A DNA stretch of 64,000 bases, taken from Apostichopus japonicus. Taxonomy: Eukaryota > Echinodermata > Holothuroidea > Aspidochirotida > Stichopodidae. Below are positions 6,899-45,100 of the stretch, piece after piece (the first letter of the stretch is position 1; each line of letters begins with the position of its first letter). Where the stretch lies: contig NC_092561.1 of NCBI RefSeq assembly GCF_037975245.1, positions 18,109,001-18,173,000 of the forward strand, written 5' to 3'. The notes under the pieces are model-generated. The model searched no databases, was not told the DNA's origin, and worked only from the letters and a program-made list of their open reading frames with translations. Both the position numbers and the translations under genes were made by a program.

Positions 6899-6952
<54 letters not shown>
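6899..6952. repeat. (CA)n(TA)n microsatellite
   Basis: A short CA run passes into a longer TA run. The weak open frame across it is an artefact of the repeat. Confidence 0.95.
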
Positions 6953-6956
<4 letters not shown>

Positions 6957-10703: not shown

Positions 10704-13700
10704 TTACATCATTTTGTCGAAAGATTGACAAATGTCACTCTGAGCTCCTGAATTTCCGCTGAAATCGATTAAGGTTTTAATAACGAGGACAGCAAATACA
10801 GTGATGAAAACTAGACTTACGAGTCGGTCCATTACCAGGGCAACAGTTCTAGCTTGAATCTTTGCCTGGTGATAAAAAATAAATAACATATTTTAGTTGA
10901 CGAAAGCAGTAATCGAATGAAATTTGTAAAATGAAATAAAAGCGATGGATGGACCAAATTTGACCTGTTTGATGAGATATGAATTTTTGTGCAATTTTTG
11001 GTAATCTACCCTAATTATTTTCGTTGCAACAGAATTTCAAATAAAGAACAAAATAGTGACCAAATCTTGAATTACGAGCCAAAAGTCGATGATGTTATAA
11101 AGTAAATATTGTTCTGTATTTTAAAGCAAACATATATTTGAAGACACGCCATGGTATCCACCTCCCCCCCCCCCTTCACTCACTTGGCAAAATAGAGGAA
11201 GAAATAATAGTGTTCCCTATAAAACCGTAATCCTCCTGTAAAATTTAATAATGTTCATATTACATTTTCGTTTTAAGCAAAGAGTTTCAAGATTCATGTA
11301 CTTAAAAAAAATGTGTTTTTTTTTTTAAGTTTGGTGATAAGCTGTGAATCACTCTATGTTAAAGGTGATCAGGATAACATGGGTAGTGTCAACAGACGCT
11401 AGATTAGGATTGCAATCAGAGAAACTTAATCCAGACAGAGAATGGGTGTGAACTATGGATGTAACGGAGACTATGAAGAGACTAAAGACGGAGCTCTTTG
11501 TAATCTGATCTTCGAACCACACGCCGATTCCGAATGAAAAGAATAGTTTGTTTCAAAATCAAGGCATAGCAGGGAAATGTACTACTTTATGCAATATCTT
11601 TAGTCTTTTTTTATAGTTCAGTTAGAGATCCTATTCTTGTTTACGTCTGTATTCGAGCTAAATTTGGTTCATGTTGGCTTATGTCTTATTTAAGAATCCA
11701 AAAATCAGTTACCATGTAACAGTTTAATTATCAAGGATCGTAAAAGAGTTCTTACAAATATGTAGACACACAATTGAGACTTACACAACCTTAACTTTCA
11801 GTAGCGTCACTGATCTTAAATTCCTCACGTGATTTTGCGGCAGATTAAAAACAAATACTTACCTTTTCAGCTTTACTAATATGTTTCCCCTCGCTCTCTA
11901 ATGAAATTTGTTTGGCTGAATCCAACTTTGGACCAATTCCATTAATGCTTGATGACCGCAACTCCGTTTGTGCAGTTTCCTCCATAAGAGTGCGTATTCT
12001 CTCACTATAAGAGGGAACCACCGTCATACGAGGTAGATATTCTAGAAATAACTTTCTCGAAAAGGTATACTTCAAAACAAGGATACTTCTATCACCATAA
12101 GCGATATTGATATTCAGCAAAGAAGCTGGTACAGCAAGACACGCTAAAACGAAGGTGGAGATGAGATATGAACTCAGTATTGGCCGCTCGTTTGTGCTGG
12201 GTAGGATATCAGCAACGAGAAGTTGAAAGACGGTTAGGCCAAGAACCATCGATACACCCAATGAGATTCTCTCTCCACTATCAGGGGGAGCAATGAACGT
12301 CGCAAACGCCATGATACAGAGGAGAGTTGATGGTAACATCAGTGTTAGGATGTAATTTTCTGGATTACGTTCCAGAATGAGGCACACTGCCGCTATTTTT
12401 ATATTTACCAGGGGTAAATGGTTGGCAAAATCAGGTTTCATTATGGTATAATTGTGGCTGGTAAGGTTGGAGAATTTCCAATCTGCAATTCAAGTGATGC
12501 CAAGACTGGTGACGTCTTTGTGGTTAAGATAAGTTTTTCTGAGTGTTGATTTTGAGGGAAGAAGAAAAATGGGCAAACTTGTGTATCGAATGGAAAATAG
12601 TAGATGCTGCAAAAAAGGGAAGAAAAGTAGAAAAAAACAGACTTTTAAATTAGTTATTAAGAATCTTATGCACGCTTCACAAAGAAATACATCTCGTATG
12701 CTGCTTATAATATACGCTACCTAAGTAAACTTCAGTGGTACGAATGGGCGCTTCTTAACTATCCCGACACTTACATGAGGTACGATACGGACTGGTACAA
12801 AGTTAGAAAAAAGATAAAGACATTTTACATACAAACAAATGCCGCCAGTTATGTTCTGAAACGGCATAGGATGTTATTTCTGACCATTAGTGGTACAATG
12901 GTATAGATTCAGTGTGCACAGTGCTGCCAGGGGAATTTATAGTTGGGTCCAGGAAGCGAAAACCGTAAAAGTAATGCATTTCTAAGATTGTTAGCATATT
13001 ATTATTATTATTGCAGGTGAATATCCAGTTATCTCCTGTCTCCTGTTGTGATAGCTGATGACCAAATGAATGCATACTACGTTCCTCATGATGATTATGA
13101 AGAAAATTTGACGCATTAGCTATAACGAATTTAATTAGGCAGTTTTATAATATACTATATAACAAAAAAACTCGATCAAAAGGAAAGTGAGCCTTTTGCG
13201 TTAACTCAAGTGCAGAGGCATTGAACGTATTCTTGTAAAATATACAATTTCTTTACTTTAAAATTACAGAGGTAACTTACAGAATTGGACACTGCGTTGA
13301 TAGTACAAGAGGCGTTCCAAGGCTGACAGAACCATCCGATGTCAACAAAATAGATCCTCGTTCTGGAGATATGATGCTCAAGGAGTCGATATCCAAACTG
13401 TAGACATAAATAATTAGTTGAACATGATAACTTACTTTCACATTAAAACATTTTATAATTTCATAATTACGTTATAATGTAAATAGTTACTTTATATTTA
13501 TTGCTATTGTCATCTTATGGTAAATATCACCGGCTGATTACATTTAATAGTTTCATGTCTCCGGATCTTTGTTTGACAGCTTATTATTTATTTGTTTTTG
13601 TATGATGTGGTTTGAGTAACTATAGATTTTACTGATTACGTATACCTAACTTATGGGCCAATAGGCAGAATGCAATTTCAAATTACTCACGCATTGCTGA

Positions 13701-15577
13701 TGAATAGCTTTGGAGTCCATATTTCATCAATAAATATGACTACTACATCTTCACCACCAAACTCAGATGTATTCCAAGAGAGGCGCTCATCAGTCCATCT
13801 CTACAGAAAGACCAAGTACAACTTTGAACAGACGACATGAATGTTTCATATATATACATATGCGTTCATGTAACATTATACTTACACAGACGTTCTTTGT
13901 AATATAAGACTAAATTAAGATATTTTATGTATGGAAATGAATGTTTTCTTATCTCTACAAATAGAATTGTATACATATTTTGCAAAGGAAACAACATGGA
14001 TCGCAAACTGGTTGAACAAATATAAATCGAGTATAAAAGCAATGATACGGTAAAGTCGTCGACACCTAATTCGTCCCAATATCAATAAAATACAAATGTA
14101 CTACAACATTGTTATAATATTGCGATGGTTGAGGCGTTTAGAAAAATTGCAGGTAATGACAAATACTGCTGAACTGTTTGCACATAGGTGGATGCATATA
14201 TGATCATTTTTGGAAAACTGTAAATTAAAAGGGAATGGTTTGAAGGTTTGATTCGCTTACCATATTCAACCATGATGCAGTTGTTATAACTTGATCGCGT
14301 TCATTCTGATAAAAAGATAACGAAACAATGGCAAAATTTAAATGAATTTACTTAAGTTATTAATATACAAAGGTATTTTCATGCAGTAAATAAAGCATAA
14401 AATATTTATGTTTCATGCGTGAGACGCTTTTTCTACTTTTATCATCAAATAGTACACACTTTGCAATGGTACCAAAGTAGTTAATCTAATGGAAGTAAGA
14501 TACTTTCAAGGACGTCATCGATTTGTTTGTAGGTATTTATGGATATAAATTACTTTTGTATTGTATTTACACAAACAATGAAACAAATACACGATCTATA
14601 TGAACATGTGCTCGTCATTAGAATTTATTCAAGTTACAAAACTTCAACAATAATTCTAGTTTATCCTCTTACCAAGTCCAGCATGGCATAAAATTGCAAC
14701 ATAATTTCAACATGGACAGATTCATCGGAGTCAAGAACGGGCCTCTCCCTTGCTGAGAAGTTGGCCTGATTGAGTAGGTAATCTCGAATTCGAGCCTCAT
14801 TACTCAGTGGATACCTGGCCTCTGCTACATCTGAAGGTTACGAAATGTGACAAAGATGTGATGCGACTTTTGCAGACTTTGCATGAGGCTGGGTTTGAAC
14901 AAACAAATCAGAAGTAAAATGATTTAATAAAAGAACGTGCATATATTGGGCCATTTGTTCACACTTCAAAACGTATAGATTGACAATTTGACTATTTTCA
15001 TAACTGTGCGTTGGTCCTATATATCTTGTGTTCGTTGGATCTGATGTGATACTACAATTATATCATTGTAAAGTTAATGAGAAAAGGGTGGCATGTGCTT
15101 TATTCAGTCGCAGACTACACAAAGGCTTTGTAGAACATTCGATAGTCCACGGATAGCTCACTGATGTCCACATGAGCCACACTAGGGTTCTCACCGGACG
15201 GTTCAAGTAGAACAGAGAAGGTTCTACAGAGGACACATAAATCTCACGGTGGGAAAAACGAAAAATTTGAGCAATCAATGTTGAAACTGATCAATACGTT
15301 CAATGTGTTCCTTAATGTCACTGACCTGTGAGCAAGGTATTCATTATTAACTTCACTGTGACTTCCATTGAGAAAATTAAAATTACTATTACGAAAGTAT
15401 TAACATTTAATATAATATTATAACTGACTTGTGTTCTTGTAAGGAAATTGCAAATGCACAGTCTTTATTCTAAGAACGGTCACCAAATTCTAATAACAAT
15501 AAAAATGTAGTCTTACCTTTGTTGAAAGCTAAAATAGTCACCACCACAAGCAGTAAATAACGCAAGAAATACTTCAT
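10704..15577 (-). CDS. Cys-loop receptor subunit, gene C, with one-base frameshift
   Basis: Exons in transcript order: 15577-15517, 14830-14673, 14305-14261, 13800-13691, 13397-13281, 12606-11863, 10865-10704 (lengths 61,158,45,110,117,744,162). The start ATG (15577-15575) opens a hydrophobic signal peptide, MKYFLRYLLLVVVTILAF. Loop D RWTDERLSW and loop A EIWTP are in exon 4. The Cys-loop is split by the exon 5/6 border, and M1-M3 are in exon 6 with pore SGERISLGVSMVLGLTVFQLL. The final exon has M4. One base is missing near 12484-12485, between LEL and DWKFSNLTSHN; gene D has one more base at the aligned point. The rest is clean and would give about 465 residues. It may be an early pseudogene, an allele or a read error. 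Loop B is FPQNQ in place of GSW, and there is no loop C cysteine pair. Confidence 0.88.
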
Positions 15578-16830
15578 GGTTGTTGGGAAGAGAGTTTTAA
15601 ATTAAAAACTAACTGTGACTCTCAGAAAAGATATTATCTTTCCTTGCGTTCTCGCTGATGTAAAGTTAATGAAATTTTCAACCGGAACTTACGCTTTCCT
15701 TGTTCCAATAACCATCTTCCTATCTTGATATTATACAACCAATGGTCTGCAAACAAGACGTCTTAAATGTTGCGATTCCATCAATTTAACAACCTACTTA
15801 CATTATTCAACTTTGGTTGAATCTCATTAGTAAGCTTGGAATATGTTACTAGCTGCAAAATCAATCGATCTAGGAATCTAAGAAGTCGCCATCATCCACG
15901 TGTTATTTTGGTATACTGAATATTATGTGCTAGGTTTGTTGAGAACCAATTAAATATTCATTATAAATACACCATCGAGAAACGGACGTTTTAAATTAGA
16001 AGATTACTTCAAGAGATTCCGTTTTTAAAATTTATGTTGCCGTTATTATAATCATACTTCATTAGAACTATTATTAATAGTTTAACGCTTGACGTAACAC
16101 TCTAGTTTGTTTACATTTGTTGGGCTAATGGTACAGGCATGACTCATGGCCTGCTAGGCGCTGTCCTTTAAAATTGCTACTGGTCACCCATTAATTTTAG
16201 TAGACTTAAGATTTTCTGTCATTATTTCACTTTTCGATTTTCCGGTTCGCTGGCAGTGTCCATTCCTGAAAATCAGGTTAAATGACCCAAAAGCTAATTT
16301 ATTTTTCATTTTATCATGTACTCTACTTGAAGTAATAGCTGCAGAGTAAACCTGTTTTTTGGTATTTAAAGAAAAAGAGATCATTTAAACTTGCAAGACT
16401 AAATCGGTGCATTGCTTCTTCACTGTTAAATCAACATAATTAATTTCTTACAAAAAGAGAATATTGTCTTTAGACGAATTGTTCTTGACAACAGACAACA
16501 GTTCCTCTAGTTATGTAATGAAATGTAATGAAACGAGTAGCTAAGTGGCAACTTGCAACTCGTTAGGTTAAGTAATTGCATTCGTCGTTTCTGAAAAAAA
16601 TTATGACGTAATAAATCATCACGCATATCAAATGTTCATCACATTTGGAATGATACGAATTTTTGCCTAAAATACCGCTACAATCGATACATTAAAATTT
16701 ATTTAAATCAGTTTTAAGAAAATTAAACAACGAATGTTTTACATGTATGATCGGAAATCCCGGATTTTCGCGAAAATCAACTATCGTTTTCACGAAAGAG
16801 TACTGTAAATGCAATAATGCATGCTTTGCA
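15578..16830. other. Upstream region of gene C, no gene seen
   Basis: This should contain the promoter of gene C (-), but I see no clear TATA box or other named element. Short open frames here have no recognisable features. Confidence 0.5.
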
Positions 16831-17400
16831 TATCAGTCGGTCCATGGTCAGATCAACCGCTCTGGCTTCTATCTCTCTCCGGTGATGAAGATAAGGAGAA
16901 GTGGAATTTAATGTAAAGCGAACGAGGAGTACTAAAAATACATGCAAACCAAATAATTAAAAGCACTCAATATCAATAACGAATATTGGCCACAAATTTG
17001 TGCTTAGGATATTAGCAACGAGAAGTTGAAAACGGTAAGACCAAGACCCATCGATACACTCAATGAGATTCTCTCTCCACTACCAAGGGGAGCAATGACG
17101 ACAAACGTTAAAATACAGAAAAGAGTTGATGGTATCACAAGTGTTTGGATGAAGTATGCTGGATTACGGTCCAAAAAGATGCATACCATCGCTGATGTTA
17201 CATTTGCGAGCGGCAAATTTAACAGGTATTGGCAAAGTTTTGTTAAGGGTCGTATGGCCGGAGAGATCCCACTCAGCATTTCCAAGAGTGGAAGGAGATA
17301 TTGGAGCTTTTGTAGATAAAACAAATTTTGTAGAGTGTTGATTTTAAGGAAAGAAAAGTAATGGGCACACTTGGGTGTCGAGTGGAAAATAGTGAATTAT
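16831..17400 (-). pseudogene. Receptor subunit pseudogene between genes C and D
   Basis: Two pieces remain. At about 17400-16983 is an exon 6 relic with HYFPLDTQVC, then a stop in the PxNQ motif (CAA changed to TAA) and a frameshift before LANVTSAMVCIFLDRNPAYF. M1 and SGERISLSVSMGLGLTVF follow, then another shift inside M2-M3. At about 16880-16831 is the start of an M4 exon (REIEARAVDLTMDRL), cut off after about 50 bp. Its acceptor AG has become GG, and the exon 6 acceptor is lost as well. The residues are closest to genes C and D, so it is a third member of that subgroup. The 17425 dispersed repeat starts about 25 bp beyond its 5' side. Confidence 0.88.
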
Positions 17401-17424
17401 GTTAAAAAACAAGGCAATATTTAG

Positions 17425-17543
17425 CCTCTGAAGAAGATCCTGCTAGGATCGAAACGTCGGGCCCTCTTACGTTTACACATTCTCTAACAAAGGCTCTAAA
17501 GTGGATAAGCAGTTTGGAAAAAGTTTTGATTTATTTTTAACTT
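17425..17543 (+). repeat. Dispersed repeat copy 1 with hammerhead-like core
   Basis: CTGAAGA (17428-17434) is followed by hairpin GATCC-TGCTA-GGATC (17436-17450), then GAAA (17451-17454). An ACGT/ACGT pair (17454-17457 and 17469-17472) encloses an 11-nt loop. This matches the CUGANGA / stem II / GAAA / stem III order of type I hammerhead ribozymes, apart from one extra A before stem II. The sequence to about 17543 is shared with copy 2. Confidence 0.6.
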
Positions 17544-18567: not shown

Positions 18568-18683
18568 CGTCTGAAGTTCCTGCTAGGATCGAAACATCAG
18601 GCCCACTTACTTTTACACATTCTCTTAAACGGGCTCTTTAGTTAATAAGCAGTTTGCCCCAGTTTTTGTTTTGTTTTTAACTT
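18568..18683 (+). repeat. Dispersed repeat copy 2 (core damaged)
   Basis: It is alignable with 17425-17543 from CTGAAG..TGCTAGGATCGAAAC through TTACACATTCTC and AATAAGCAGTTTG. Bases are missing between CTGAAG and TTCC, and GAAACATC replaces GAAACGTC, so the ribozyme-like fold is broken. Confidence 0.75.
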
Positions 18684-19791: not shown

Positions 19792-22700
19792 TCACACCAC
19801 GCCCGATTCACAGATATCATTCGGGAGTCCTTGGTTTCCGGTGAAATCGATGATAGTTTTGATGACAAGAACCAAAAATGCAATGCTAAAAATTGTTCCA
19901 ATCAACCGATCCATTACCAGAGCAACGGTTCTGGCCTCAATTTTTGTCTGGTGATGATTAAAACGAGAATTTATTATCAGTAAAAATAGCGAATAAAATA
20001 AAAAATATGAAGAATTAGATTCATAGATAATTGTTTCTCGAAAAGCTGAGAACATATTCAAGTTTAAGTCACATCAGTGGAACAATATGACTAAAGGTTA
20101 TTTTTGCTTTCATAATATAGCTTTAACATAATACTTGAGCTATTTTTAAGACAAGTTGAGGATTCAATAGTAGATAGCTGATCAGATTGGACAAAGTAAA
20201 GTAGCTTTGTGATAGTGAGGAACAACAACGTCACTCATGAATGACAAAGGTTAATACCTGCGATTAAGGTAACCTGTCGTAGCCACATAAAAGTATGTGC
20301 CAACGAATAATCAGGCTGATACAAGGTTATGTGTAATGTGCAGCTATTAAATGAATTGATGAATCGTAAGACACTGCAATATAAAGGTAATGTTATACTT
20401 GTCTCATAGGCTAATTTGCGTCTTTTAATTAACATCACAAGCTTCCATAATTCAGCAATTTCCACGATAAATGTAAAGAGAATAGCTCATACCTTCTCCG
20501 ATCGGCTGACAAGTTTCTCTAGGCTAGCAAATGAAACGCCTTCATCATTTCCATTAGGGCTTGACACCGCTAAATTCGTTGGTGCAATTTCGTCATGGAT
20601 GGTGCGAATCCTGTCACTGTAAGTGGGAACCGATGTCAATCGAGGTAGATAGTCTAAGAATAATTTCCTCGACCAACGATACTTTAAGGCCAGAATCGCA
20701 CTATCCCCGTAAGCAATGTTGATATTAACCAATGAGAAAGGTACAGTAGCACAGGCTAATACGAAAGTGAAGGTAAGGTATGCACTCAATATTGGTGATT
20801 GCTCGTTTGTTGCCGGTAAGATATCAGCCACTAGAAGCTGAAATACGGTAAGGCCAAGAACCATCGATACACTCAAGGAGATTCTCTCTCCACTATCAGG
20901 TGGAGCAACAAAAGTCACAAATGCCATGATGCAAAGGAGGGTCGAAGGTACCATAAGCGTTCTGATGTAGTAAGCTGGGTTACGTTCCAAAATGAGACAA
21001 ATTACCGGTACACTCACATTGGCAAGAGGAAGGTTCGTTGCGAAGTCAGGTATTTGGAACGTATGGTTATGGCTCGTTATGTTGAGAAACGTCCAATCAG
21101 TGCTTTGAAGGGGTTCAAATGAAGGTAACAACTTGCTATTATAAATCATTTTTTCAGTGTGTTGATTTTGAGGGAAGAAGACGAATTGGCAAGCTTGGGT
21201 GTCGAACGGAAAGTAGTAAATGCTGTGAAATAAGAAGAACGAATATGTTATCAAATATAAGTAAAACAATTGGCAAATGTACTAAATACCACCATTTTGA
21301 TAAGTGGAATTACTATTATGATAGAGTGACTCAGCTGGAGTGATTTTCATAGCTGCATGTTGGAACGTTATTGATTTGCTAAAAGTCCAATTATTGCTAG
21401 TAATTAGAGTAATAACTAGAGGTATAGTAACAAATTTTTAACATAAGTTTATAGTTAAGCGTTTCTTTGTATTTGAAATGCGATAGTAGTAATTCAAGCT
21501 AATATTTTTTTCTTTGGCATTTAAATCTGCCAGTTTCTCTCTTTCACTCTAATGTGTATAATACGTTTCACGTATCAAACGGCTTTGTACAAATATTATA
21601 GAGCAACATAGGCCGGTACAGCCTCAATAAGACCAATGCGGAAATAAAAATAAACTCATAAGCATAACTTACTTAATCGGACACTGTGTTGCCACTACAA
21701 GAGGAGTCCCAAGGCTAACGGAACCATCCGAGGTTAACAAAATTGATCCTCTTTCTGGAGAAATGATGCTCAGGGAATCAATATCGAGTCTGCAAATACA
21801 AATTCAAATTGAATAAACCTTGCATATTCACATTTAACCTTTATAACTTTATCAGTATTGTGCAGTATGACTGCAGTATACTAATCAAATACTCATTGAA
21901 ATTTTGTCGTTCAATTCTTGGTTTTTGATAAATGAATAGTAGAAGTAATAACATAACTAATATGAAATTACGAGATAAAACTTTTTTAAACGGGGTAAAA
22001 AGCGGGTTTTAGTTTCGAGACAAAAGTTACTTTTTCAAGGAAATTGTTCTAAAAGTAAGTTTTTAGATAAACAGTCGAAGTTTGGAGGTGCAATGTTTGC
22101 ATAATGTATTTCCCATTTGGCACACGGTAGCTTCTACTAAAGTAAATTGTTTTCTGGAAGATTCGCAAAAGGCCTGTGATGTCCCCTCCCCCGATTTTGT
22201 ATAGCTTCTTACGACAATGAACTAATTTGCTTCCAAGGCGATGAAGGGGAGGGAGGGATAGAACGAGGGACATTTTAAACTTAGTTTTGTATTCTTTTTA
22301 TTAATAATAATAAGCAAATATTTATAGAGCGCTTTATGCAAAGGCCTCAAAGCGCTTAATTGCATTAAGCTTTCATGGAGTGTTTTGTATCGGAATGTTT
22401 GCTCTTCCAATCCTGCAAACAGATCGACTCCCCTCGACCATATGCCCCCTCCCCCTTTTATGGTAATATCCATTAGGCGAGTGCCAATGCCTGTATATGG
22501 GAAGCACGTCTGTACTATGAATTCAGTCTCACATTTTGACTTTAACATTTCACAGGGAAAGATAACCCTTCATTTGAACGGTCTACAATACTCACACATT
22601 AGTGATGAAAACATTTGGTATCCATATTTCGTCCATAAAAATAATCACTATATCTTCACCGCCAAACTCAGATGCATTCCAGGAAAGTCGTTCGTCTGTC

Positions 22701-23247
22701 CATCTCTAAGCAGTAAAAAAAAATACTGTTAAACAAACGACGAGAATAGTTACTTACTACGGGCACAGCCAAATATTGAACTATATCTCATTGAGAATAC
22801 GTACCATTGGGTTTAATATAGACATGTTGGCCAAAACATGGCCACAGTGCCTTGTAGAACATAATTGTAATGTAACCGAAATAAAATATACGGAGTTGGA
22901 ATTTAAGAGATATCTCAAATACTGAAAGTAGAGAAGTGAAAAATAGCACAGCTTGTTACATGTTGCTGATATTTCCACCAGACACCAAAATATATCAAAC
23001 GATTCTCAATTACCATCGTCAACCATGATGCAGTCGTTATAACTTGATCTCGTTCATTCTGTAAAATGAAGATAAAACAAATCCTTGAAACAATAAAACA
23101 ATCAAATATTTGAAACAATGGTAAAATTTTACACCGAAAATTTCCCTATGTAAAGAAAAAATATAACAAAACAATGTTAAAAAGTGTTGAGAGCGTGTAC
23201 ATGTCATTCGGCAACATGATAATCTTTTCATAATAGTAAGGATTTAA

Positions 23248-23302
<55 letters not shown>

Positions 23303-24509
23303 TAGCGTAAGAAATCAATATAAACAAGATGCTCTTCGCCATTAAAGACAGTTTTCATCCCGAAGAGAGTCAACTAAAACGTGAAAATACAATTATAGGT
23401 GTGATCTTCACGTAAATGATTTATATTTGTGCTCACCAGGTCTAGCATTGCATAAAATTGCATCATCATTATTACATGAACAGGGTCATCGGAGTCAAGA
23501 ACAGGCCTCTCCCTTGCTGAGAAGTTGCCCTGGTTGAGTAGGTAATCTCGAATTCGAGCCTCATTACTCATTGGATATCTGGCCTCTGCTACATCTGAAG
23601 GTAGCGAAATGTGACAATGATGTGATTCGACCATTGCAAACTTTGCATAAGGCTGGGTTTGAACAAACTAATCGGAATTAAAATTATTTATCCAAAGAAC
23701 GCATAAATGTAGGGTCACTTGTTTTACCCTACGAAACATATAGATTTACGATTTGCGTGCTATTTTTATAAATTTGTTGTGGAATTGTGGAAGAAAGGCA
23801 AATGAGAAATGCATATATCACGGATTTATGTCTGACAAAAAGGTATTGCAATGATTTCAGAACGAAGCAGTGCTTTAGAATACCTATAAATCCACGCCTC
23901 ATTACATGAGATGGTGATATAGTCACGCCTCAAATTACATTCGGTAATGATAGATTCGCCTCATTACACGAGGTGGTGATATATTCTAGCCTCATTTAAC
24001 ATGAGGTAGTGACATATCTACTCCTCATTTTACATGAGGTAGTGATGATACTTTCACATTTGACATCCACAGATAAAGCCCCTCTCTTTACCTATAGTTA
24101 TTACAACCAAGCACTTGATATAGAGTGATGGTTTTAATTCATATACAGTGATACAGTGATGATGGATTCACATATCACATTATGTTGAGTGATGATATCT
24201 TAATGCCTGACTTAACATTAGGTTGAAGATACATTCACAGAGTGATTAGTCCGTTTTCATTGAAAATTGTCAATTTTATTAGTGAATGTTATGCATTCAC
24301 TTAATATAAAAAAATTTATACTAATGGAGAAACGTACCAAACTGACTCTGGTTCTAAGTAAACGAGCAACCGAAAACTGCGGTTGTCTTTCAATGTCTTA
24401 TCTTTTAACGTTAGTTTTAACGATAACAAAACGGTAGTAAAGCCTTACCTTGATTTAAAACAAAGATGATAGCAACCGCGCACAGCAAATAACATGAGAA
24501 ATACTTCAT
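19792..24509 (-). CDS. Cys-loop receptor subunit, gene D (intact, 458 aa)
   Basis: Exons: 24509-24449, 23594-23437, 23058-23014, 22705-22596, 21789-21673, 21222-20493, 19947-19792; total 1377 bp, open throughout. Signal peptide: residues 1-20. The ligand-binding domain has NERDQVITTASWL, loop D RWTDERLSW and loop A EIWIP. The Cys-loop is C161-C175 with FPFDTQ inside. M1 is about 249-270, M2 about 276-297 (E276 = -1', S279 = 2', L286 = 9', D297 = 20'), M3 about 309-331 and M4 about 419-441. The M3-M4 loop is about 80 residues. Glu at -1' and Leu at 9' are as in cation-selective nicotinic channels. FPQNQ replaces the loop B GSW motif and the loop C cysteine pair is absent, so a different ligand or an accessory role is likely. 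It is the closest intact paralogue of gene C. Confidence 0.93.
22303..22366. repeat. Fragment resembling a SINE/LINE tail
   Basis: It runs from an (ATA)n stretch into TTTATAGAGCGC..CAAAGCGCTT with a small palindrome. Such sequence is common in marine invertebrate interspersed repeats. It lies in an intron of gene D, and the family was not identified. Confidence 0.4.
23250..23299. repeat. (AT)n microsatellite
   Basis: A pure AT run in the intron between exons 2 and 3 of gene D. Confidence 0.95.
23896..24240. repeat. Degenerate minisatellite in intron 1 of gene D
   Basis: At least five units of about 31-35 bp start GCCTCATT or TCCTCATT, followed by ACATGAGG and GTAGTGA or GTGGTGATAT. CCTCAT and ATGAGG within a unit can pair, so each unit can form a small hairpin. 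Units decay after about 24065. Confidence 0.7.
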
Positions 24510-28912: not shown

Positions 28913-28919
28913 TACTGTG

Positions 28920-29170: not shown

Positions 29171-29174
29171 TGTG

Positions 29175-31382: not shown

Positions 31383-34300
31383 CTATTCTTGTTTACAATA
31401 ATCAGACAATATTTCAGGATTCCCGTTGAATTTGACCAATATCACGGTGAGCAAGATGAAGAAGCCTACGAGAAACACAGCGAACATAATCCTGTCTGAT
31501 ACCAGAGCAACAATGCGAGCCTCCAGTTTAATCTGCGGAAATGATAATAACATAGATACGTCATTGAACTGGCCCTTATGTGAGGATGTAGTAGACAGAA
31601 ATAACAACGGATTTTGTGTTTCACCAATGGTCTGGTGGCACCATGTATTTAAACATGAAATTAGATATAATTGGTAAAATCAAGAGGGCAGTGGGTAAGA
31701 CTCAAGAGAAACCCCCTGACACACTCCAAGTGTCAACAATGTGATTGTCCAAGTGCATCACATGTTCATTTATTACTTAGAACTCAAACTTTCGATAAAC
31801 TATTCGTGCTTGTTGATTCGTCTTGAAATATATAGTGTACACGCTAACTGAGCTATTCCCAGCTGGCTATATTTCGTAACACACAAGGACCCTTTGTTCG
31901 AGCCGGAAATGACTCATGGCTACTTGCCATGGAACGCACAGATTCCCTCACACTTACATGTTTAACTTGTAATACTTCAACAAGCGAGGTATTATTTTGC
32001 TTATTGTCCAAAGCAAAAACATCCATATTACCTCCTTAATTTCAACATTAAGCACTCTTTATTTAGTAATAGCATAGAATGGAATGGAATGGAATATACA
32101 TTACCTTTCCACAAATGAAAGTTATTAAATTGGCAATACTTGTATGATATTGCATTCTCACCGTTTTACCTCCAATTCATTCGTCCCAAGAGTATTAAAC
32201 GGATGCAAAAAACACATGTTGAAATGTTCAAATTGTTTGATCATTACTTCAATGTTTGAAATCGATAAATGAAGCAAATATGTTATTTTAATGTAGGATA
32301 GCACATAAATATAATATAAATGCCAATCATAAGATGTGTTTTAAGGTGCAACGTAAGTCACATAACATAACAACCTATAGCGTCATTTCTCAAACAAGAT
32401 TAATAATCACACACTCATAGATTCGCCATATATCAATATGTGCATACGGAGATCTAGAGAACAGGGCTGGATTCCTAATTTGTTTTAAATTCAAATACTC
32501 CATTGAATAATGATTTTAAATTTAAAATAATTTTTTTCTTTAGTAACCAATCAAAGGAGTTGAAATAAATTTAGATAACCTTAACAGTTTTGCAAACAAA
32601 TTTTAAACAATTCAACTACTTATTACCATACCTGTTCAACTGGGCTGATGTAAACATGTGAGTCATCCGTGGGTAGTATATGCGGAGTACTGCCATCTTT
32701 GACTTTAGGATCTTCAAGCTCTTTTCTGTGTCTTGAATTCTCATTTTGCACATTTCCAACTCTCTCACTGTATGATAGAACTCCAACGGCTTTCGGCAGA
32801 TATTGCAAGAACAACTTACGCAAAGTTGGGTATTTGAGGAACATGAGCCGTCTATCACCATAAGCAATATAAATATTCAATACAGATATCGGCATGGCCA
32901 AACAGGTCAAGCCAAAATTGAGAGACAGATAAAGACTGAGAATGGGTGACTGGTCACCGTAAGGTGGTAAAATATCGGCCACAAGCAGCTGAAATACGGT
33001 TAAGCCAAGTACCATTGACACCCCAAGAGAAATTCTTTCTCCGCTATCAGGGGGCGCTAGAAATGCCACAAAGGAAATGATGCAGAGTAGGGATGAAGGT
33101 ACCATCAACGTTTTCACATAGTAAGACGGTTCTCGTTGTAAGAACAGACAGAATACTCCCACGCTCGTGTTTGCAATAGGGATAGATGGTGAAAAGTCCC
33201 GAAACGCCAATGTCCAATTATGAGCTGTGATATTGGTTATTGACCACTGAAGACTAGAAATGTCGGACACATCGCGAGCCGGTAAAGTACTAAGATATAA
33301 AATGTCCGCGTACTGATTTGATGGCAAAAACCTGAAAGCGCAAACTTGTGTATCGAATGGAAAGTACTGAACCCTGAGATGGAAAGATAAGAAGAAAAAC
33401 ATACAGGAAGCGTGAGTTTTTGCAATATTTTTTTCTAGATGTCGATGATACTTGTAAGACAAGAAAGAGATTGGAGTTATTGGATTCGGATAACAGGAAA
33501 CAAAAATTTACGTGAATAGTTGTATTTTTGTATTATGTACATTTATTTTTACAAACATAAACATGATATAGTGCAGTATCACATCGTCTGATGCAACTGA
33601 TAGTACGCTGTCCGAAGCACCTTCCAACGCTACGTCATCTGCAACGTTCTCTAGAAATATCAACACTGTGACAAATGTAGTATTACTTTGTGGACGAAGT
33701 TTAATGTCAAGAAGATCTTGTTGAACCAGAATTCAATTGTAATTCAATTACTGCTTCCTTTAACGCAACAAATCTGAGCCAGTTTGTTACAATATAGTTT
33801 ACAGAAGTAACAGCGTAATTAATATTAAATATTCCAGTGGCGTAGGAAGGTACTTTTGAATGGAGGGGGGGAGGCTGAAGACTGATGGCCGGCCTGGGGG
33901 AGGGGTCTAAGGGAGGGGGTGTCCCCCTCCCCTTTGGATTCTTTTTGCATTTCCAGGTGGCCTCAGATGCAATTTGGTGCAATATAGCACACTTCAACTC
34001 TCACTCCATTTTGTAAAGAATTTTGCATTTTCACCTGGCCTTAAATGCAATTTGGTGCTCCAAATAAGATTTTTTTCTCATTTGGAAATGAAAAAGGGGT
34101 TTTCTGACTTGCGGAGCGGGGGGGGAAGTATCATTCCGCCCCCCATATTTTTCACTGGGGGATGGCGCCCCCCAGCCCCCCGGTTCCTACGCCCTTAAAA
34201 TATCCTAAACTATAGGAGCCTGAAATATCGCGTGTGCGAATTCTAATCTCAAAACGTACCGCTTCCGGTGAGCGGTTAGCTGCTCCCCGACCAAACTGTC

Positions 34301-37300
34301 AGGTAACAGTAGGAGTAACGAAGATTTCTGTGCCAAGAAATACAGTATCATGAGCCTAAGCTTATAAAACCTTTTCAAATTAAAAGTAAAATTGATTAAG
34401 AAGAATCTTACTTGAGTGGGCACAGCGTAGACATTATGAGAGGAGTTCCCAAGCTGACGATACCATTTGAATCTAATAGAACCCCTCCTCTCTCTGGTGA
34501 GATGATGTTTAATGATTGAGAATCTAATCTACCAACAAGAAAGATCAAATATATTTAGACGCATATGAACACTTTTCTAACCGACATAGAATTACAAGAC
34601 TGTTTGTATTAATTACAGTTTTCTCTTCCCATCAGCAGGACAGGTGCAAATCTCCTTCATTTTTTTTTTCGCTTAGTATAGAGGTCAAGTTTGTGAAAGG
34701 TACGACTTACCGTATACATATATAAGAATCTTGAAATCAACTTTCGTTACTAGAAAACATAACTGCAGACGGTAGGTCTAACAACGTTCCTTACATAAGT
34801 TCAATATTACAACAACATTAATTGTTAGATTTCTTCAAGTATTGATTGTTTAACTTACGTATTGCTTAAAAATATCATCGGTGTCCAGATCTCATTAATG
34901 GAGATTGGCATGACAGTTATATTTCCAAAGTCTTGTGGAATCCAAGAAAGTCTTTCGTCGCGCCATCTCTGAAAAGAATACGATTTAAAGCAGAAATGAC
35001 AATACGTGTTGAATGAATTACTTTGACGAATATTTATATCAAAGTTGCAATCCGATTTCCGGAACCTTTGAATGAATTTCTAAGCGCTAAAATTCACCTT
35101 TGAAAATAGGAATTGGCTGGCCACTCACAACTAGAGCCCAGCTCATTAACCTTTGTACCCGTGACGTGTTTTCGGTTCGCGTTAGTTACTACAAGCTGCA
35201 ACACACGATGTATCACACGCGCAAAGGAAAGATGAATGTTGACCTCTGGAGAATTTGATATGCAACCGCAACAATTTGAGCCAAAAGAAAATGATTATTA
35301 ACTAGTATGTATAGTCTTCCGATAAAGATGTATCAGACAATTATTTAACACCAGCAATACCGGGACGACTTGGGAACACGACGTGGTAGGTATGTTGTTT
35401 TCTTGTTTGTGCGACATGTGTAGTACAACTAGGCCTAGTACTAATGCGTACCACAATGCGGATGACTAAGCTAGGCCGTTTCTTACGTGGCTGCTTAAGG
35501 AAGATATATTTTGTTAAATATGTTGACCTAGCAAGCTTTATTAAGCTTTATTTTGTAAGTTTATTTACCTATGATATGCAAAGATAATTACTGAGCATTC
35601 AATATATTTTTATTGACAAATAATTGACTGGGTTGGTGGTAAACACAAAGTAACTGATAGCCTAGCCAGCTAGGCCATAGCCGCAGGGAATTATCAGAAC
35701 ATATCGTCGAATACTATGTAGGCTCGAAGTTTGTCCTCATCACCGCGTCCAAAACTGAGATTTTGGAGAGAAACAGAATCCTAAATTCCGACCATGATTG
35801 TTACCTCGACTTGTTGTATTACTACATCCAATGCTGCACAATACGGCTTTGTTTAGTGGTACAACAATAAGCTATGGTGAAGTATCAAACAAAACTAAAG
35901 TCTCAGAATCAATAATGGTTTTCGTACTAATAATAGAAAGGCTCGCGGTTGAAAAGAAGCTGAACAGCGATGCGACTCGAAATGAGGTCACGGGTCAATT
36001 TCTGCATACGAACCGGAAGTACTCTTAATTCGCTGTCACGAAATAACGATAAAATCAGCAAAATAACGTTAAGAATGGAAGGTGTGTGTTCTGTTATAAC
36101 CTAATATACACTTTATTAGTAAACAAAATGTCATTTCTGCTTTAAACAGTTGATAGGAATCGATAATGATAATAGCAAATTATGTTTAGATGTAGAGATT
36201 GTATGATTTTACAAGATTTCGCAATTATTCCTCCAGATGCAAATATCGAACTTTTTGCTATCGTTTACTACATTATTGACGAAAGTATACGTAAACAAAT
36301 AATTTTAAGAGTACTTTTTTTAACATAATCCCTTATCTAAGCCACAAGTTCATACCTATTCTTCATCAAGTCCAATCACATATGTTGACTTTTTAGATTA
36401 CAGTTTCTAGTATAGTTAATAGTTACAATATATGCATCTGTTTGATTCTGTGACTTAAGCCTGTAACTATAACTTTCAGTTTACATTTATTCAGTAATCT
36501 ATCAGTAGCCATTATTTCATTTTGTTTATAAGAAGAGTAGTATACTTAATATTACTGCATATAGTAATTTTTTTTTTCAATATGAAGAATATTTCACTGA
36601 ATGCAACACAATTTGTAAAAGTACAATTGTAAGCCATTAAATTTCTTCAATCCATGCATTTAATTTTATTCATATCTGAGAAAAGACACATGCGTGTCTA
36701 GCTAGTAAATATATTTGGAATAACATCCTCACCATATAAATCCATCCTGATGTGGTGATAACTTGATCTCTTTCGTTCTGTGTAAGAAATTTAAGATGGT
36801 AACAATGATGATTTCTACCTTGATAGTTCGAAAACCACAATGCTCGAAATTTCGTTTAAAAATTAGACAGAATGGTACAAGAAATAATTAGGTCAGTTGA
36901 TAACGTATTTAAAGTAAAAAAAGGTACCGTATTGTTTTAACAGAAGACTGATACATCCATTTATGTTATCGAAATATCAATCATTATTCAGTATGCTGGA
37001 TAATACCAACGAGCAATATTTCCCTTCTATGAAATGATTTGAAATAAAATTGTAAATTAAGGCGGATAATCCTTGAGATTGTCTTGATTGTGATTTAATG
37101 ATAAGCTTACCAAATCTAACATCGAAAATATCTGCAACGCTATCGTTACGTGTACTGTAGAAGCTGCTCCAGTGATAGGTCTTTCCATTGACGAATAATT
37201 GGCATGCTTTAGCAAGTATTCTCTTATTTGTCCTTCGTAACTCCTGGGGTATTTCGCCCTTATTTCTGTAAATAACAAATATACACAGTTTTCCTTGCAT

Positions 37301-38084: not shown

Positions 38085-40000
38085 GTTGAGGTAATGTAGC
38101 ACAGCCACCTGTCCTTTGTAACAGTGCAATGTGTCCAATATGAAATATCACTTTCTGCCGTTATGAGACAACCAAAAAAGCGATCCGTTAATTTAACACA
38201 GAACCTTCGTAAGTTCAGAGTAAGATTAAATTGATGTTTAAAAAGCCAATCGGTTTTAAATGGATATTTTCTTAATTAAGCGATAGTACGGTGTCATTAT
38301 TAAATGCAGCGAATATCGGATTTCATTAAATGCACGTTCGATAGTGCTCGGGTATATTCATGCCACGGTTTTTTTTTTTTTTTTTAACACGAAAGAAATA
38401 GTCAAGCGTACTGCTGGCATTGTTCTGTTGAAGGACGTGTTTTATTGGTCGAAACAAACCACTTAACTGATGTCAAGCTAGGTACTTAACAACGGCAAGG
38501 TCCTTTTTTTGAAAATCACTGCATGACAAATACATTCTTTAACAAATATATTTTAAGAAGTTTCTCGGTAGATGAATGTAGATGGAAACGGAGGTTGAGA
38601 ACAACGATATTGATTTAGTGAACGAAAATGTCGTTGTGTGGAGAATTAAAGCTAGTGATAGGTAATATAGAAACTATTTGAAGTAAAGGTACTTTTATTT
38701 CCAATATGACGTGCAAATATGAAATAATTTATACATCGATTTTTACATGCATGGTTGAAACCGAGAAAGAGAAAAAGAACTGTAAGTGTCAGTCATTTTA
38801 GAAAATATTATCATGTAATCAATTTGCGAAACATTGATTTTGTATGCTACACTGTACACAAAGGTATTCTACGATAGAAAACTTAACAGAACACTAAAAT
38901 GTACCAGTCATGGAACGCGTAAAGATGTTCAAATGATTTTTTTAACACTTGATGTTATACACAGATTATGTATGTCAGTAGCAAAACGGCCACCCATTCA
39001 TGTTTTAACACAGATGCATATAAATGCGCAATATATTCAAGTCGAAAACGCTATTATAAGCAACTGTACAATTCGGTTCGGGTGAAACGGCAAATGTTCT
39101 CTTTGGGAACATAGGTGACTAAACAGGAGAATACTAGTGAAAAGATGAAAGAACACTGGATATTCAGTTTTTGAACACTAATGTTTATTGTAAAAAAAAA
39201 ACCATTACATGTCCAGTGTGAGAACACTAAAACGCGTCAATGCAAGTGAAACAAATATTTAACGCTAAATTGTCTTTAAAGATTTGAATATTAACACGAC
39301 TGTTAAATTATGACGACTCAACGTTGAAGCTTTGGACCATTTTAGTATGTTTGGCCTGAAATATGTTGTGATTCCCAGGCCTAGTATTAAGTGACAACAG
39401 CGCAAATCAATACAATTAATGTAAGCATAACACTGGTATTATAATTGCAAAAGATTTTCATTTACCACAGGAATCAAGGAACTTAACGACGGATAGATCT
39501 TTTCTGATTTTAGACGCCCAATGTTATAAGATGGTGCCAAAATAACTCCTTTTTGTGTTACCGAAACATGTTGTTTTCCCCATTATATCACTATTTTCTG
39601 AAATAAAATTGTTGAATACCATATCTGAATTGAAATTGGAAGCAACATTTACATAAAGTAAAATTGATGTATCCTTAAATAGAAAAAAGAAGTGGGTTTG
39701 CTAAAACAAAATATTTGGAAAACCTGGGCTTTTGGTGACTTTCCCATAACATTGTTGGCTTCATTCCATATCACATTTGCTGATGGGAGTTATGCATTCT
39801 TCTCAGATCTATTTCTACAGAGTAAGCCCTGTTTATGGCTGCTCTCATAGGTGACTCTTTGAATATAATATATATATATATATATATGTATATAATAATA
39901 ATTTAAATTTGATGCTGCTTTGACATACGTATAGGCCTACCTTGCGGACAGTGGAAATCTGTACCGAGTAGTGACTATCTTGTACTTGTACGATCGAATT
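38085..40000. other. Upstream region of gene E, no gene seen
   Basis: It holds a block at 39008-39083 shared with the intron of gene G, and a short (TA)n run near 39866-39893. No coding exon recognised. Confidence 0.5.
39008..39083. repeat. Dispersed repeat fragment, copy 1
   Basis: About 75 bp, from GATGCATATAAATGCGCAAT to TACAATTCGGTTCGGGTG, is almost identical to 57836-57909. Similarity fades on both sides, so both look like fragments of one mobile family. Confidence 0.8.
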
Positions 40001-40645
40001 ACATCTATGTGCATTTATGCGATACGCGTGAAGTTGTGAAAGACGTTGCGAGACATTTCCCAGCCGGTTCAAACCGGTACAGCCGACTCAAAGCCTATAT
40101 GTTGGCCCTAAAGACAGTACAGTATGTGTTCTTAAGTTATTAAGATGCGCAAAATAGAACACATCCATGTGCATATATGCGATACGCTTGAAGTTGTGAA
40201 AGACGTTCCGAGACATGTCCCAGCCGGTTCAAACCGGTACAGCCGGCTCAAAGCCTATATGTTGGCCCTAAAGACAGTACACTATGTGTTCTTAAGTTAT
40301 TAAGATGCGCAAAGTAGAACACATCTATGTGCATATATGCGATACGCGTGAAGTTGTGAAAGACGTTGCGAGACATGTCCCAGCCGGTTCAAACCGGTAC
40401 AGCCGGCTCAAAGCCTATATGTTGGCCCTAAAGACAGTACAGTATGTGTTCTTAAGTTATTAAGATGCGCAAAATAGAAAACATCCATGTGCATATATGC
40501 GATACGCGTGAAGTTGTGAACGACGTTGTGAGACATGTCCCAGCCGGTTCAAACCGGTATAGCTGGCTCAAAGCCTATATATTTTGGCACTAAAATTGAC
40601 AGTATGTGTCCTTGAGTTATTAAGATGCGCAAAAAGAGAACACAT
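40001..40645. repeat. 160-bp tandem repeat (four units)
   Basis: Units start near 40001, 40161, 40321 and 40481 with an exact 160-bp period and few differences; the last unit is the most diverged. Each holds CCGGTTCAAACCGG, a short palindrome, next to CAGCCGGCTCAAAG, and ends AAGTTATTAAGATGCGCAAA. There is no open frame. It is a small satellite or amplified element. Confidence 0.95.
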
Positions 40646-42106
40646 AATATTTTTGTCAATCGGTTGATATGAACATCGAGGGCTTCATAAATTCAGGTTG
40701 TTATACTATGTGTTCAGGAATTAGCATACTATGTGTTCATATCACATCACTACCTGTTCAAGGAAGGGCACCCTGTGTTGATCAAGTTATATCGTTTCCA
40801 TCGACTCCAGATTCTCCTTAAACACCTGTGTTATAATAAGAAACGTCTTACGCGTCTTAAGGGAACTCATAGAACACATTCAGACGCGTCATGCGTAGGA
40901 ATTGTTTACAGTGTAGAATTAAAACAATTAAAGACGATGGTAATAATGAAGTGAACTCACGTAACAACACAATAATGATTTAACAGTAAACAGTAATACA
41001 CCACGTCAATCGAATAGCAAATTCATGTATTTGAGTACAAATCACTGACGATGCTGTGATATATAAACGCCATTAATGTTCATACACTAATAACGGAATG
41101 CAACTATATATTCGGTTACACATCAAGTACCTCTAAGACTATTATCAATTAAATAATGACGGATACACAAATATAAGGAAAAACAAGAAGTTTGTGAAAC
41201 TTGTAAGTTGTTCCAATATTTTCTTTTCAAAGTTATTTAATGTTATTTGACCAAAATATTTGCATCTGAAAAAATACCCAATCAGTGATTATGAAAGTGA
41301 AAGTGTTTGAACAGTTTTTGAATTAAGGTAAGAAAACAATAAGTATCATGAACATGTAGGCGCATATGCTGTACTTGTTATGAGTGGAAATTAAGGAGTA
41401 GATGCATTAGCAAAAGACTTGAACGTCGATTAAATTGACGAACATAGAAACAATATTTGAAAAATATTACAGATATGTTACCTACGGTGCCTTTGGTGGT
41501 AAACCTTTGCGTAGTTACAATTCATCACGGTCCCTTTTGTATTTGTAATCTATAGTTTACATAGCTTACTAAGTAGCATTGACATTGTTAATCGATTATG
41601 GAACGTCTTCTCCCAACTTTAGTATCAATAAGAAACAAAGCACACGAAATAGTCGTTCTTATAAGCAATGTTTAGTACGCGTGACAGTTCAATGATATGA
41701 TGTAAATTAATGGATAGATATCCTAGAGGATGTAGAGGTTCGGTAAGGAATATGACATTTGCAAGCAGAAAAGATGTATAACACATATTTTGCGAGAACA
41801 TATCAAGCTATTTTAATGAAAAGTTTCTGAAAATTAAGCATTCCCAAACTTTGGAATAACTCAAAACATAATGTAATGTTCAATATAACTCGAATATTTA
41901 TATGTTTTTTATGAAACAGCTTTAAGTGATTGATTTGTCGTCTTTACATCCAACAATTGAAACTAGTCTCGCAAAACTTAAAGTGATTCGCTGGTGTTTC
42001 ATCTTTTCTTGCGCTAAAAGGGGGAAGATTCTCTGCAACGTTTGTACATATTACGTTCCTTCACATAGAGAAGACAGAAGCAAACTTCACTTTCAAGCTA
42101 ACATTC
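40646..42106. other. 3' flank of gene F, no gene seen
   Basis: AT-rich sequence without recognisable exons or repeats beyond short runs. Confidence 0.5.
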
Positions 42107-45100
42107 TCAGAGATTTTTTGCCGGCGGTTCTTCAATCTGAAATGTTTCTTCGCACAAAATTTGGGCTGGGCCATCGTTTCCATTGAAATCAACAATAACT
42201 TGTATCACAAGGAGGAGAAAAACGGAGAAGAAAATAATGGACGCAATCCTGTCGAGCACAAGAGCGACGGTGCGAGCTTCTATTTTAGTCTGAAAAGAAA
42301 AGAAGTAATTAAAGGAGGACTATAAAATTATATTATAATGAGATTCTTTTGTGATGTCATCGCATTAACTATTATAATGCACTCAATTGTCTTCATTTCT
42401 ATAATTGGATCTAAACATATCCTTTTATTTTGTCTGCAACTAGAATTGATAGTTACGGTAGTAGTTACCTCTCTAACATTTTTGATCATAATGTAATTGT
42501 TTGTAATCACGTGATAAGCTTGCTGTTCAGTTTGGGCCTAATTTCTGAACAATTGGGCACAAATAATGAAATTGTCATTTAATGAGTGAAATCGAATAAT
42601 CAGTTTCTATAATTTCGAACAATAATGTTAACTTTATAATACTATACTGAGATTCTTGTAAATCAATACAAATGTCACAAAGCACAAGCCATGACTGGTG
42701 GCTTGAACTGTGTGAATAACAAAAGCAATTTGCTAGAAATTGGCACTGATGATGGCCTAAGTATGGATATGAGGAAAAAGGAAACCGAAACATGATTTGC
42801 TTTGAGTGTGCTACTAGTTACGAATGAGGAGTAATTCCTTCCAAGCAGATAAAGTAAACTATTCATTCATTGGAAGATGAGCTTTTAAATCACACCGGGG
42901 TAGTGGTGGAAGGGGAGATGGGGGGTGCTAGTTTATAAATATATTACGTTGTTTTGCCGTTATGGAAGGTCAATTCTTTTTCTTTTCGTTTGATTTTCTA
43001 TCGTATTATTTACGCTGAAAGAATATGCATTGCCGTTTAAGTCCACTACCATTTCATGTTAAAACCGTCGCCATCTTGTCAAAACCATGGAAATTAAAAA
43101 GTCAGTAGGGGAATAAGAAACATACAATAAGATAGCATTTCTACAATAATGCCATTTGTAGACCCTTTGAGCTTTCTCTAATAGTATATGAAGGAACGTT
43201 GAAAACATGATATACAAACTTGCTTGCATTGTAGAGTGCTGTATCTTAACTTTACTTATCCAGCCCAATTCGCAATAGGAATCATAGGTTGGACATGACG
43301 TTGAAAGGTTTAAAAAATGCAGAAAATAAAATAAAACATTATTGTGTCAAACATGAAATGCATTTGGCAAATATTTTACTAACGTTGAGTTCAACGAAAT
43401 AAATAAAAATAGCCTTTGCCTTTGAAGAAGATCCTGTTAGGATCGAAACGTCAGGTCAACTTACTTTTACACATTGAATTAAACGATTAGTAATGTGTTA
43501 ATAAAAATTTGGTTTTTCCCCTACCCTCTTGCATATCTTAGTCAGAAAGAAAATTTACCGTAACTGTTACATTATAACTTGTCTGGATCAAACTGGAAAA
43601 AAAGAACATTCAAATAAAGAATTACTTCCCAAACAAACCTTTTCAGTCGTGTCTAAGTGACCATCCAAACTCTCTGATGTCTTGGTCTCCATGTCGCTGT
43701 TTTCAAGTTGATTCCTCCTCTTATTTGGCTTGTTCAAACAGTTTATCCTTTCACTATAGGACGGAACACCAAGAATCCGTGGTAAATATTCAATCAACAG
43801 TCGTCTCATGAACAAACACTTTAGAACAGTGAGTCTCTTATCACCATAAGCGATGTTAATATTCGACAATGATATCGGTACCGTACTGGAAGCAAGGACA
43901 AAATTAACTGTGAGATAATAACTAAGAATTGGAGAACCTTCGAGAGTTGTTGGCAAAATATCCGCTACAAGAAGTTGGAAAACGGTCAGACCAAGAACCA
44001 TAGATACGCTCAACGATATCCTTTCACCACTATCTGGGGGAGCAAAGAATGTTAGAAAAGACAAAATACAAAGAAGTGTAGACGGTATTAATAGTACCCT
44101 GATATAGTATGATGGATCTCGCTCAAGGTGCAAACAGAACACAGCCATACTCAAATTTCCACTATGAATATTTGGAGTAAAATCTGGGATGATTAGTTCT
44201 CCATCATAATTGGTAAGATTTGTAATTGTCCAGTCAAGGCTGCTGTAGGTGCCGAGTAGTCCTTGCGATCGTGTTAGTATCTTGACGAGGTCATTATGTT
44301 GGTTAGTGGGCAGAAAGTGGTATCGACATACTTGTTTATCGTAAGGAAAGTAGTGAATTCTGAAACCAAACAATAAATATCGATACAAAATAAGGAATAG
44401 CTAAGAAAGAAAAAAGTATAGTGTAGTCAGAGATATCAAGAGAAATGGTGGCATTGAAAAGATTGATATTTCTGTATATTTCAGGTAATCAACTAAATAG
44501 TTAATACTGGAATATATATGACGTGTCCATGCGTTGCACTTTGTTTCGGTGGAAGGACGGGGGAGGGGGTGTTGGATTCAACAAACAATTTCTCACTGTA
44601 TTCATTTTGTTTCATAAACTTTCATAAATATCGACGTGCTCAAATATCTTACGAGAGAGGACACTGTGTAGACAAGACGGCTGGGGTTCCCATAGTAGCC
44701 ACTCCATCCGAATCTAACAATATCATTCCTCTCTCTGGTGAGACGATAGACAAAGAATCACTATCCAATCTGTTGAGTAAAAGCAAATAATTTATACTTA
44801 ATATTATAGTTTAACTATAAAAAATAGAACTTCAGTATGGAAGTGGAAATATAACCATAATACATTTCATTGCTAATAAGCTTAAGAGGAGGTAAACTAA
44901 TATTTAGTTTTTCTTGAAGTTGACAAAATTTTGTCACACTCTGTCCTTGTAATTATATGCAATTGTCAACGACACAGCAGCCACCAGCGTGTATTAAATA
45001 TTTAGCTTTGTTTGTTCCTTCGTCGTGTTCGTTTAATAATTCCAACAACAATTGTTGATGACTTTATGTATTGCTAATAAACTAATACAAACTAAACGTA

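Follow-up and report, generated by a model that had tools for sequence, protein, structure and literature searches.

The sea cucumber Apostichopus japonicus carries on contig NC_092561.1 a tandem array of Cys-loop receptor genes, the end of which lies in the 64,000-nucleotide stretch analysed here (positions 18,109,001 to 18,173,000 of the forward strand, G000:C1:18109001-18173000 in our numbering; hereafter the window). The array genes form a single monophyletic and deeply diverged family of Cys-loop subunits of the cation-channel type, in which the acetylcholine site is dismantled more thoroughly than an earlier, first-pass annotation of the window recognised. Loop B is rebuilt as a constrained turn, mostly P-[E/Q/S/T]-N-Q. 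The array receptors probably sense something other than acetylcholine, or act only as partner subunits.

The acetylcholine site and the channel

A total of 21 gene regions of the array were modelled, giving 16 chains of six coding exons. Since the chain of gene C skips its own frameshifted stretch, 15 models were counted as intact, that is, without stop and without frameshift: genes A, D, E and F of the window and the paralogues g01-g04, g06-g11 and g14. The counts given below refer to these 15 models.

The first-pass annotation had reported the motif PxNQ in genes A, C, D, E and F at the segment where nicotinic subunits carry the loop B Trp, and the DNA indeed reads PENQ, PQNQ, PQNQ, PSNQ and PTNQ, respectively. 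Four of these genes (A, D, E and F) are intact, but gene C is frameshifted after the motif, and the interval assigned to the set, 11863..44769, leaves outside both gene A (1405-3549) and the loop A, loop D and N-terminal exons of gene F (to 47703). When a HMMER profile of A, D, E and F was aligned with the alpha7 segment CKLKFGSWSY, no gap was needed and the x of PxNQ was found to sit on the loop B Trp; the alignment with the delta subunit is likewise ungapped at loop B. In the same four genes the stretch from the second Cys-loop cysteine to the conserved beta-9 Trp contains no other Trp. A displaced loop B Trp, an outcome that the annotation itself had named as fatal to its claim, was therefore rejected for these genes: the Trp is absent, not displaced. 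Among the paralogues, g09 has a Trp in loop F, at position 173.

The loop B Trp column is occupied by Glu (9 models), Gln (2), Thr (2), Ser (1) or Asp (1), and by Trp in none of the 15. The motif is not invariant, being exact in 10 models; the remaining five read PETM (2), PENL, PDNL and AQNQ. A conserved glycosylation site at PxNQ was also considered and rejected, because N-Q-S occurs only in A, g09 and g14. Separately, 10 of the 15 models have an N-x-T sequon just after the conserved beta-9 Trp (position 187-189 in gene D), near the base of loop C.

The loss extends to the other loops of the site. The loop D Trp and the loop A W-x-P, which had been described as remaining, are each present in 15/15 models, but the ligand-contacting Tyr of loop A, located after W-x-P-D, is lost, its column holding Ser, Thr, Gly or Pro in every model and an aromatic residue in none. 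The Asp of W-x-P-D is found in 0/15, so that the loop A signature of the cation branch, W-x-P-D-I/V, does not occur. In the part of the literature covered, hydrogen bonds to loop B were at first attributed to this Asp, which was later viewed within a redundant network. Because the loop D Trp and W-x-P are conserved across all Cys-loop receptors (PMC4006026), their retention is not evidence about acetylcholine.

The adjacent loop C cysteines, correctly described earlier as missing, are present in 0/15 array models vs 8/8 canonical genes of the same genome. In loop E, W-L-P-P is replaced by an x-L-G-T-P-like sequence, with Trp in 0/15 models and Gly in place of Leu in 14/15; the W is present in 8/8 canonical genes, and W-L-P-P in the beta4 and delta subunits. 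The principal face thus has none of the loop A Tyr, loop B Trp or loop C disulphide, and changes are seen on the complementary face as well.

The channel and gating features are kept. Both Cys-loop cysteines together with FP[FY]D, and the Arg before M1, are present in all 15 models; the Cys-loop spacing is 13 residues in 14 of them and one residue less in g10. Glu at M2 -1', which marks the cation-selective branch, is found in 14 models, the exception being g04 with Lys. PF02931 and PF02932 were both detected in 10/10 members scanned (E<=0.001), and the NCBIfam family TIGR00860 was matched by 10/10, the first member scoring below the curated cut-off (174.9 vs 280.2 bits). Using main exons alone, the Pfam model of the ligand-binding domain (LBD) detected only A of four, which is what incomplete domains would be expected to give. 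Ten representatives are on average 79% identical to one another in the M2 region and 27% in the loop C region. Judging from these features, the array subunits should be working cation-type channels. The exceptional g04 (C1:17884472-17885192), a close paralogue of F, reads GKRISL, and its Lys at M2 -1' could alter ion selectivity.

Descent, constraint and the readings weighed

In a tree of 25 rows the array forms one clade with support of 100/100 and a long stem, and the same was obtained in a second tree, the stems of this separate branch being 1.83 and 1.74. The only non-alpha row of the nicotinic acetylcholine receptor (nAChR) taken from the PDB was beta4, delta not being among the rows. As the genes are tandem duplicates, the simplest account of the common PxNQ is a single ancestral change that the copies inherited, and a convergent origin in five genes was rejected on the strength of the 100/100 clade. 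Assignment of the array to the nAChR or to the 5-HT3 side was left undecided, because long branches meet in both trees.

For comparison within the genome (671.6 Mb, 35 contigs), the eight best LBD matches elsewhere all have GSW and adjacent cysteines. The comparison was widened to 42 non-array Cys-loop loci (L001-L008 and L032-L065), which are a sample of the Pfam LBD hits, not the whole genome. Loop B is readable in 39 of them (all except L048, L049 and L063; the near-identical copies L055 and L056 are both counted), and its Trp column holds Trp in 32, Tyr in 3, Phe in 2 and Cys in 2. PxNQ was found in 0/39 of these readable loci. Another Cys-loop type, with FTTW at loop B, was observed in seven loci on C20, C13, C18 and C16 (L043, L045, L046, L051, L054, L062 and L064). 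Pfam LBD hits cluster also on C13, C16 and C20, and several separate expansions seem to be present in this genome.

Constraint was estimated with an in-house codon site model over 350 codons, excluding the intracellular loop (M0 lnL -11272.36 vs -11272.44 by IQ-TREE). The M0 omega over the array is 0.22. In the site model, 77% of sites have omega of 0.15 and the remainder 1; the mean weight of the latter class is 0.70 in loop F, 0.61 in loop C, 0.37 in M4, 0.33 in the stretch from the Cys-loop to loop B and 0.22 or less in the others. Within loop B, P(omega=1) is 0.00 at P157, 0.07 at x158 and 0.00 at both N159 and Q160, against 0.93-1.00 at positions 150, 152, 154, 156, 161 and 162. PxNQ is conserved, not decayed, within a fast stretch. 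A second constrained element lies in loop C, where an acidic residue (12/15) is followed by Phe or Tyr (11/15), the [DE][FY] pair being found in 10/15 with P(omega=1) of 0.01 and 0.10; loop C alignments across clades are uncertain. In loop E, position 126 is hypervariable among paralogues.

Five independent young pairs of paralogues (D-g07, F-g04, g01-g02, g10-g11 and g09-g14) were pooled for counts of non-synonymous to synonymous changes. The ratio from loop B to loop C is 90:28, vs 31:35 in M1-M3 (Fisher p=9e-5) and 82:63 in the remaining extracellular domain (p=0.001). M2a improves on M1a by 2dlnL of 11.2, with P>0.8 only at 173-174 in the poorly aligned loop F, and positive selection is therefore not claimed.

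Our preferred reading, to which we give about an even chance, is that these are non-cholinergic subunits of the cation-channel type, diversifying the wall of their pocket, and that their pentamers would be gated at the usual inter-subunit site. The subunits would assemble as pentamers and open upon a non-cholinergic ligand at the usual interface. The floor of the pocket would be fixed, made of the loop D Trp and the polar turn of loop B, and loop C, loop F and position 126 of loop E would make a variable wall, which would differ among paralogues and set specificity. The pattern is suggestive of a chemoreceptor-like repertoire that may have arisen through local duplication.

Several observations weigh against this reading. 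The delta subunit, a non-alpha chain, shares with the array the same losses at loop B and loop A. In 5-HT3A the loop A Tyr column holds Asn, so that loss of this Tyr alone is not unusual. The excess of changes in the fast loops is carried by three pairs (D-g07, 25:7; g10-g11, 34:9; g09-g14, 28:10), and no excess is seen in F-g04 (2:1) or g01-g02 (1:1) for the same stretch. As positive selection is weak, the fast loops may be relaxed, not diversifying. Constraint is also seen at positions 153, 155 and 163, as any ordinary beta-strand would show, and part of the contrast between PxNQ and its flanks may be the in-out alternation usual for such a strand. Furthermore, g10 and g11, both counted as intact, have small in-frame deletions in the Cys-loop and M1.

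The strongest rival, less probable in our estimate and still a serious possibility, holds that the array encodes complementary or structural subunits. Like muscle beta, gamma, delta and epsilon, they would contribute a (-) face to, or take up a place in, heteropentamers with a canonical alpha subunit from elsewhere in the genome, and would bind no agonist on their own (+) face. Alpha-type genes of this kind, carrying both the loop B Trp and the adjacent Cys, do exist in the genome (8/8 top matches), and a relaxed loop C would be consistent with an unused (+) face. Loss of the loop B Trp also has precedents among partner chains: in the ungapped alignment delta has Leu at this position and Glu at the loop A Tyr while keeping the loop D Trp, and Tyr stands at loop B in two nAChR beta chains (4aq5_B and 9avu_E). 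The best PDB match of the family profile (ten members) is nominally the delta chain 9dmg_D (203.4 bits, 4.4e-59), with beta2 at 201.7 and alpha7 at 200.6; the PDB matches include 8bx5, which we take to be the Alvinella receptor Alpo4. However, gene D alone matches beta4 best and the four main exons match an nAChR beta chain best, and since the best match shifts with the query in this way, the match to delta is not specific. The altered loop E (W-L-P-P to x-L-G-T-P) and its hypervariable position 126 further indicate that the array does not offer a standard acetylcholine (-) face, and a structural role would hardly seem to require as many as 15 or more intact paralogues in which loop B is under constraint. 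The first-pass annotation had suggested either that binding follows a different but conserved chemistry or that the subunits have a structural role only; the dismantled site and its conserved replacement bear out the premise without deciding between the two.

As to the chemistry of a non-cholinergic pocket, a proposal that we consider rather unlikely is an independently evolved repertoire with a polar, acid-bearing site beside the loop D Trp in place of an aromatic cage, loops C and F being tuned in each paralogue. Glu or Asp occupies the loop B Trp position in 10/15 models and the constrained [DE][FY] of loop C is present in 10/15; both are found together in 5/15, and at least one in 15/15. 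If true, amines, polyamines or metal ions would fit this kind of site better than acetylcholine or greasy ligands.

It is improbable that the locus is simply decaying, a set of lineage-specific duplicates under relaxed constraint, of no important function and with numbers inflated by pseudogenes. B, C, G and several fragments are indeed broken, g04 has Lys at -1', g10 and g11 carry their deletions, and whole-gene omega is 0.41-0.55 in the five young pairs. Against decay stand the 15 six-exon models without stop or frameshift, the M0 omega, the near-invariant M2 and the constraint on loop B. More improbable still is a response to acetylcholine or choline kept through a rearranged pocket, since, although Caenorhabditis elegans has acetylcholine- or choline-activated channels without adjacent cysteines and choline-gated ones with shifted aromatics, that study reports aromatics in the putative binding regions (PMC9962794), while the loop A Tyr and loop B Trp columns of the array are non-aromatic in 15/15 models and loop B itself contains no replacement Trp.

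Extent of the array and its gene models

The array spans more than 300 kb (G000:C1:17846000-18157000; L010-L028, L030, L031 and window 1-47703) and contains at least 21 related receptor loci on both strands, including several broken copies. From the window it extends upstream, where 17.83-18.03 Mb and 18.09-18.109 Mb were read, the 60 kb of C1:18030001-18090000 being left out. No receptor exon was found in the window beyond 47.7 kb, nor a further one in 18.173-18.183 Mb. Seven Cys-loop receptor loci were located in the window by tblastn with exon seeds, A and B on the + strand and C, G, D, E and F on the - strand, as follows.

Gene A, 1405..3549 (+): main exon 1405-2140 with Cys-loop, loop B PENQ (1454-1465), loop C and M1-M3; M4 exon 3418-3549.
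Gene A, upstream exons: loop E exon starting 32 bases before the window and ending at 85; N-terminal, loop D and loop A exons at G000:C1:18107160-18107981; six exons, no stop.
Gene B, 6223..9541 (+): broken copy with AENQ instead of PxNQ, a frame change in the Cys-loop region and in-frame stops.
Gene C, 10704..14821 (-): broken copy; N-terminal exon 14673-14821, loop D 14261-14305, loop A 13691-13800, loop E 13281-13397.
Gene C, 3' exons (-): main exon about 11863-12606, with PQNQ (12546-12557) followed by a frameshift; M4 10704-10865.
Fragment G, 16723..17412 (-): pseudogene with a stop codon at the loop B Trp position (FP*NQ).
Gene D, 19792..24509 (-): signal exon 24449-24509, MKYFSCYLLCAVAIIFVLNQ, with a near-identical one at paralogue g07; N-terminal exon 23437-23585; loop D 23014-23058 (45 bp).
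Gene D, remaining exons (-): loop A 22596-22705 (110 bp), loop E 21673-21789, main 20493-21222 (PQNQ 21162-21173), M4 19792-19947; without stop or frameshift.
Gene E, 31383..37265 (-): N-terminal exon 37111-37265, loop D 36733-36777, loop A 34859-34968, loop E 34412-34528.
Gene E, 3' exons (-): main 32632-33373 (PSNQ 33313-33324), M4 31383-31532; without stop or frameshift; signal exon not found.
Gene F, 42107..47703 (-): N-terminal exon 47558-47703, loop D 46455-46499, loop A 45354-45463, loop E 44653-44769.
Gene F, 3' exons (-): main 43639-44359 (PTNQ 44299-44310), M4 42107-42289; without stop or frameshift; signal exon not found.

In gene C the frame of the Cys-loop runs for about 34 residues after PQNQ and then meets two stop codons, the remainder of the exon being in a different frame. 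The 15 intact models share one exon plan, consisting of the N-terminal exon, loop D (45 bp), loop A (110 bp), loop E (117 bp; one codon shorter in g10), a long exon from the Cys-loop to M3, and M4. The modelling script demanded GT-AG exon ends, and additional array fragments lie outside the 21 modelled regions. A search for start exons in 10 models gave a common one for D and g07 and unshared candidates for g03 and g09; none was found for A, E, F, g01, g06 and g08.

Recent segment copies are present in the array, as 17969021-17973513 and 18023027-18027500 are 94% identical. Self-comparison of C1:17922250-17931263, inside the receptor cluster, revealed tandem repeat units of about 220 bases at 17927265-17931263 and an inverted stretch a few kb off. 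Past gene F, open frames at window 60959-61336 (-) and 54680-55819 (-) resemble, on visual inspection, a CUB domain and a membrane protein. Comparison with Rfam gave no match.

Comparison with known systems

The nAChR delta subunit (9dmg_D) has in common with the array the Cys-loop fold, the cation-type M2, the retained loop D Trp and the loss of both the loop B Trp and the loop A Tyr. The array differs from it in the PxNQ loop B, in x-L-G-T-P of loop E and in having neither Asp nor Glu after W-x-P, where delta has Glu. 5-HT3A, which matches gene D with a similar score (phmmer, 7e-42), is likewise a cation Cys-loop receptor without adjacent Cys and without the loop A Tyr, Asn standing at that column; unlike the array, it keeps the loop B Trp (TSW) and W-x-P-D. 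Alpo4 also resembles the array as an orphan nAChR-like protein without the adjacent Cys, for which the available part of the report gives no evidence of acetylcholine or serotonin binding; in contrast to the array, it retains the loop B Trp and the key aromatic ligand residues (PMC10338036).

Expansions of nAChR-like genes are massive and largely tandem in lophotrochozoans such as the oyster, as in the array. According to the sections covered of the molluscan study (PMC6896357), the two characteristic cysteines are found in 33 of the 132 genes of Crassostrea gigas, and the principal site is complete in 13 of these 33; a PxNQ family is not mentioned in those sections. Many of the expanded molluscan genes are intronless, whereas the array genes have six modelled coding exons, including those of 45 bp and 110 bp; the retroposed molluscan type, intronless or with 1-2 introns, is thus not seen in the 15 intact models.

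The chemotactile receptors of octopus and squid resemble the array, by description, in their divergence from nicotinic receptors and their lineage-specific expansion. As far as the excerpt of the report goes, up to 26 such receptors occur in one octopus, positively selected sites are concentrated in the ligand pocket, and hydrophobic activators take the place of acetylcholine (PMC11526382). Positive selection is not shown for the array, and no chain named as a cephalopod chemotactile receptor was found among the best 60 of 387 PDB rows.

No family with PxNQ at loop B was described in the titles and abstract openings of the literature surveyed, most subscription journals lying outside its coverage. 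Many members of invertebrate nicotinic-like expansions are without known ligand, and the array would give a natural mutant series, with one conserved substitution of a central residue, many intact variants and variation in loops C and F. With such a series one could test how Cys-loop receptors change the class of their ligand, and whether a protein that has lost the loop B Trp is a receptor at all or serves only as a partner subunit. Nicotinic-like expansions with lost binding residues are already known; the family with PxNQ at loop B is apparently a new variety of them.

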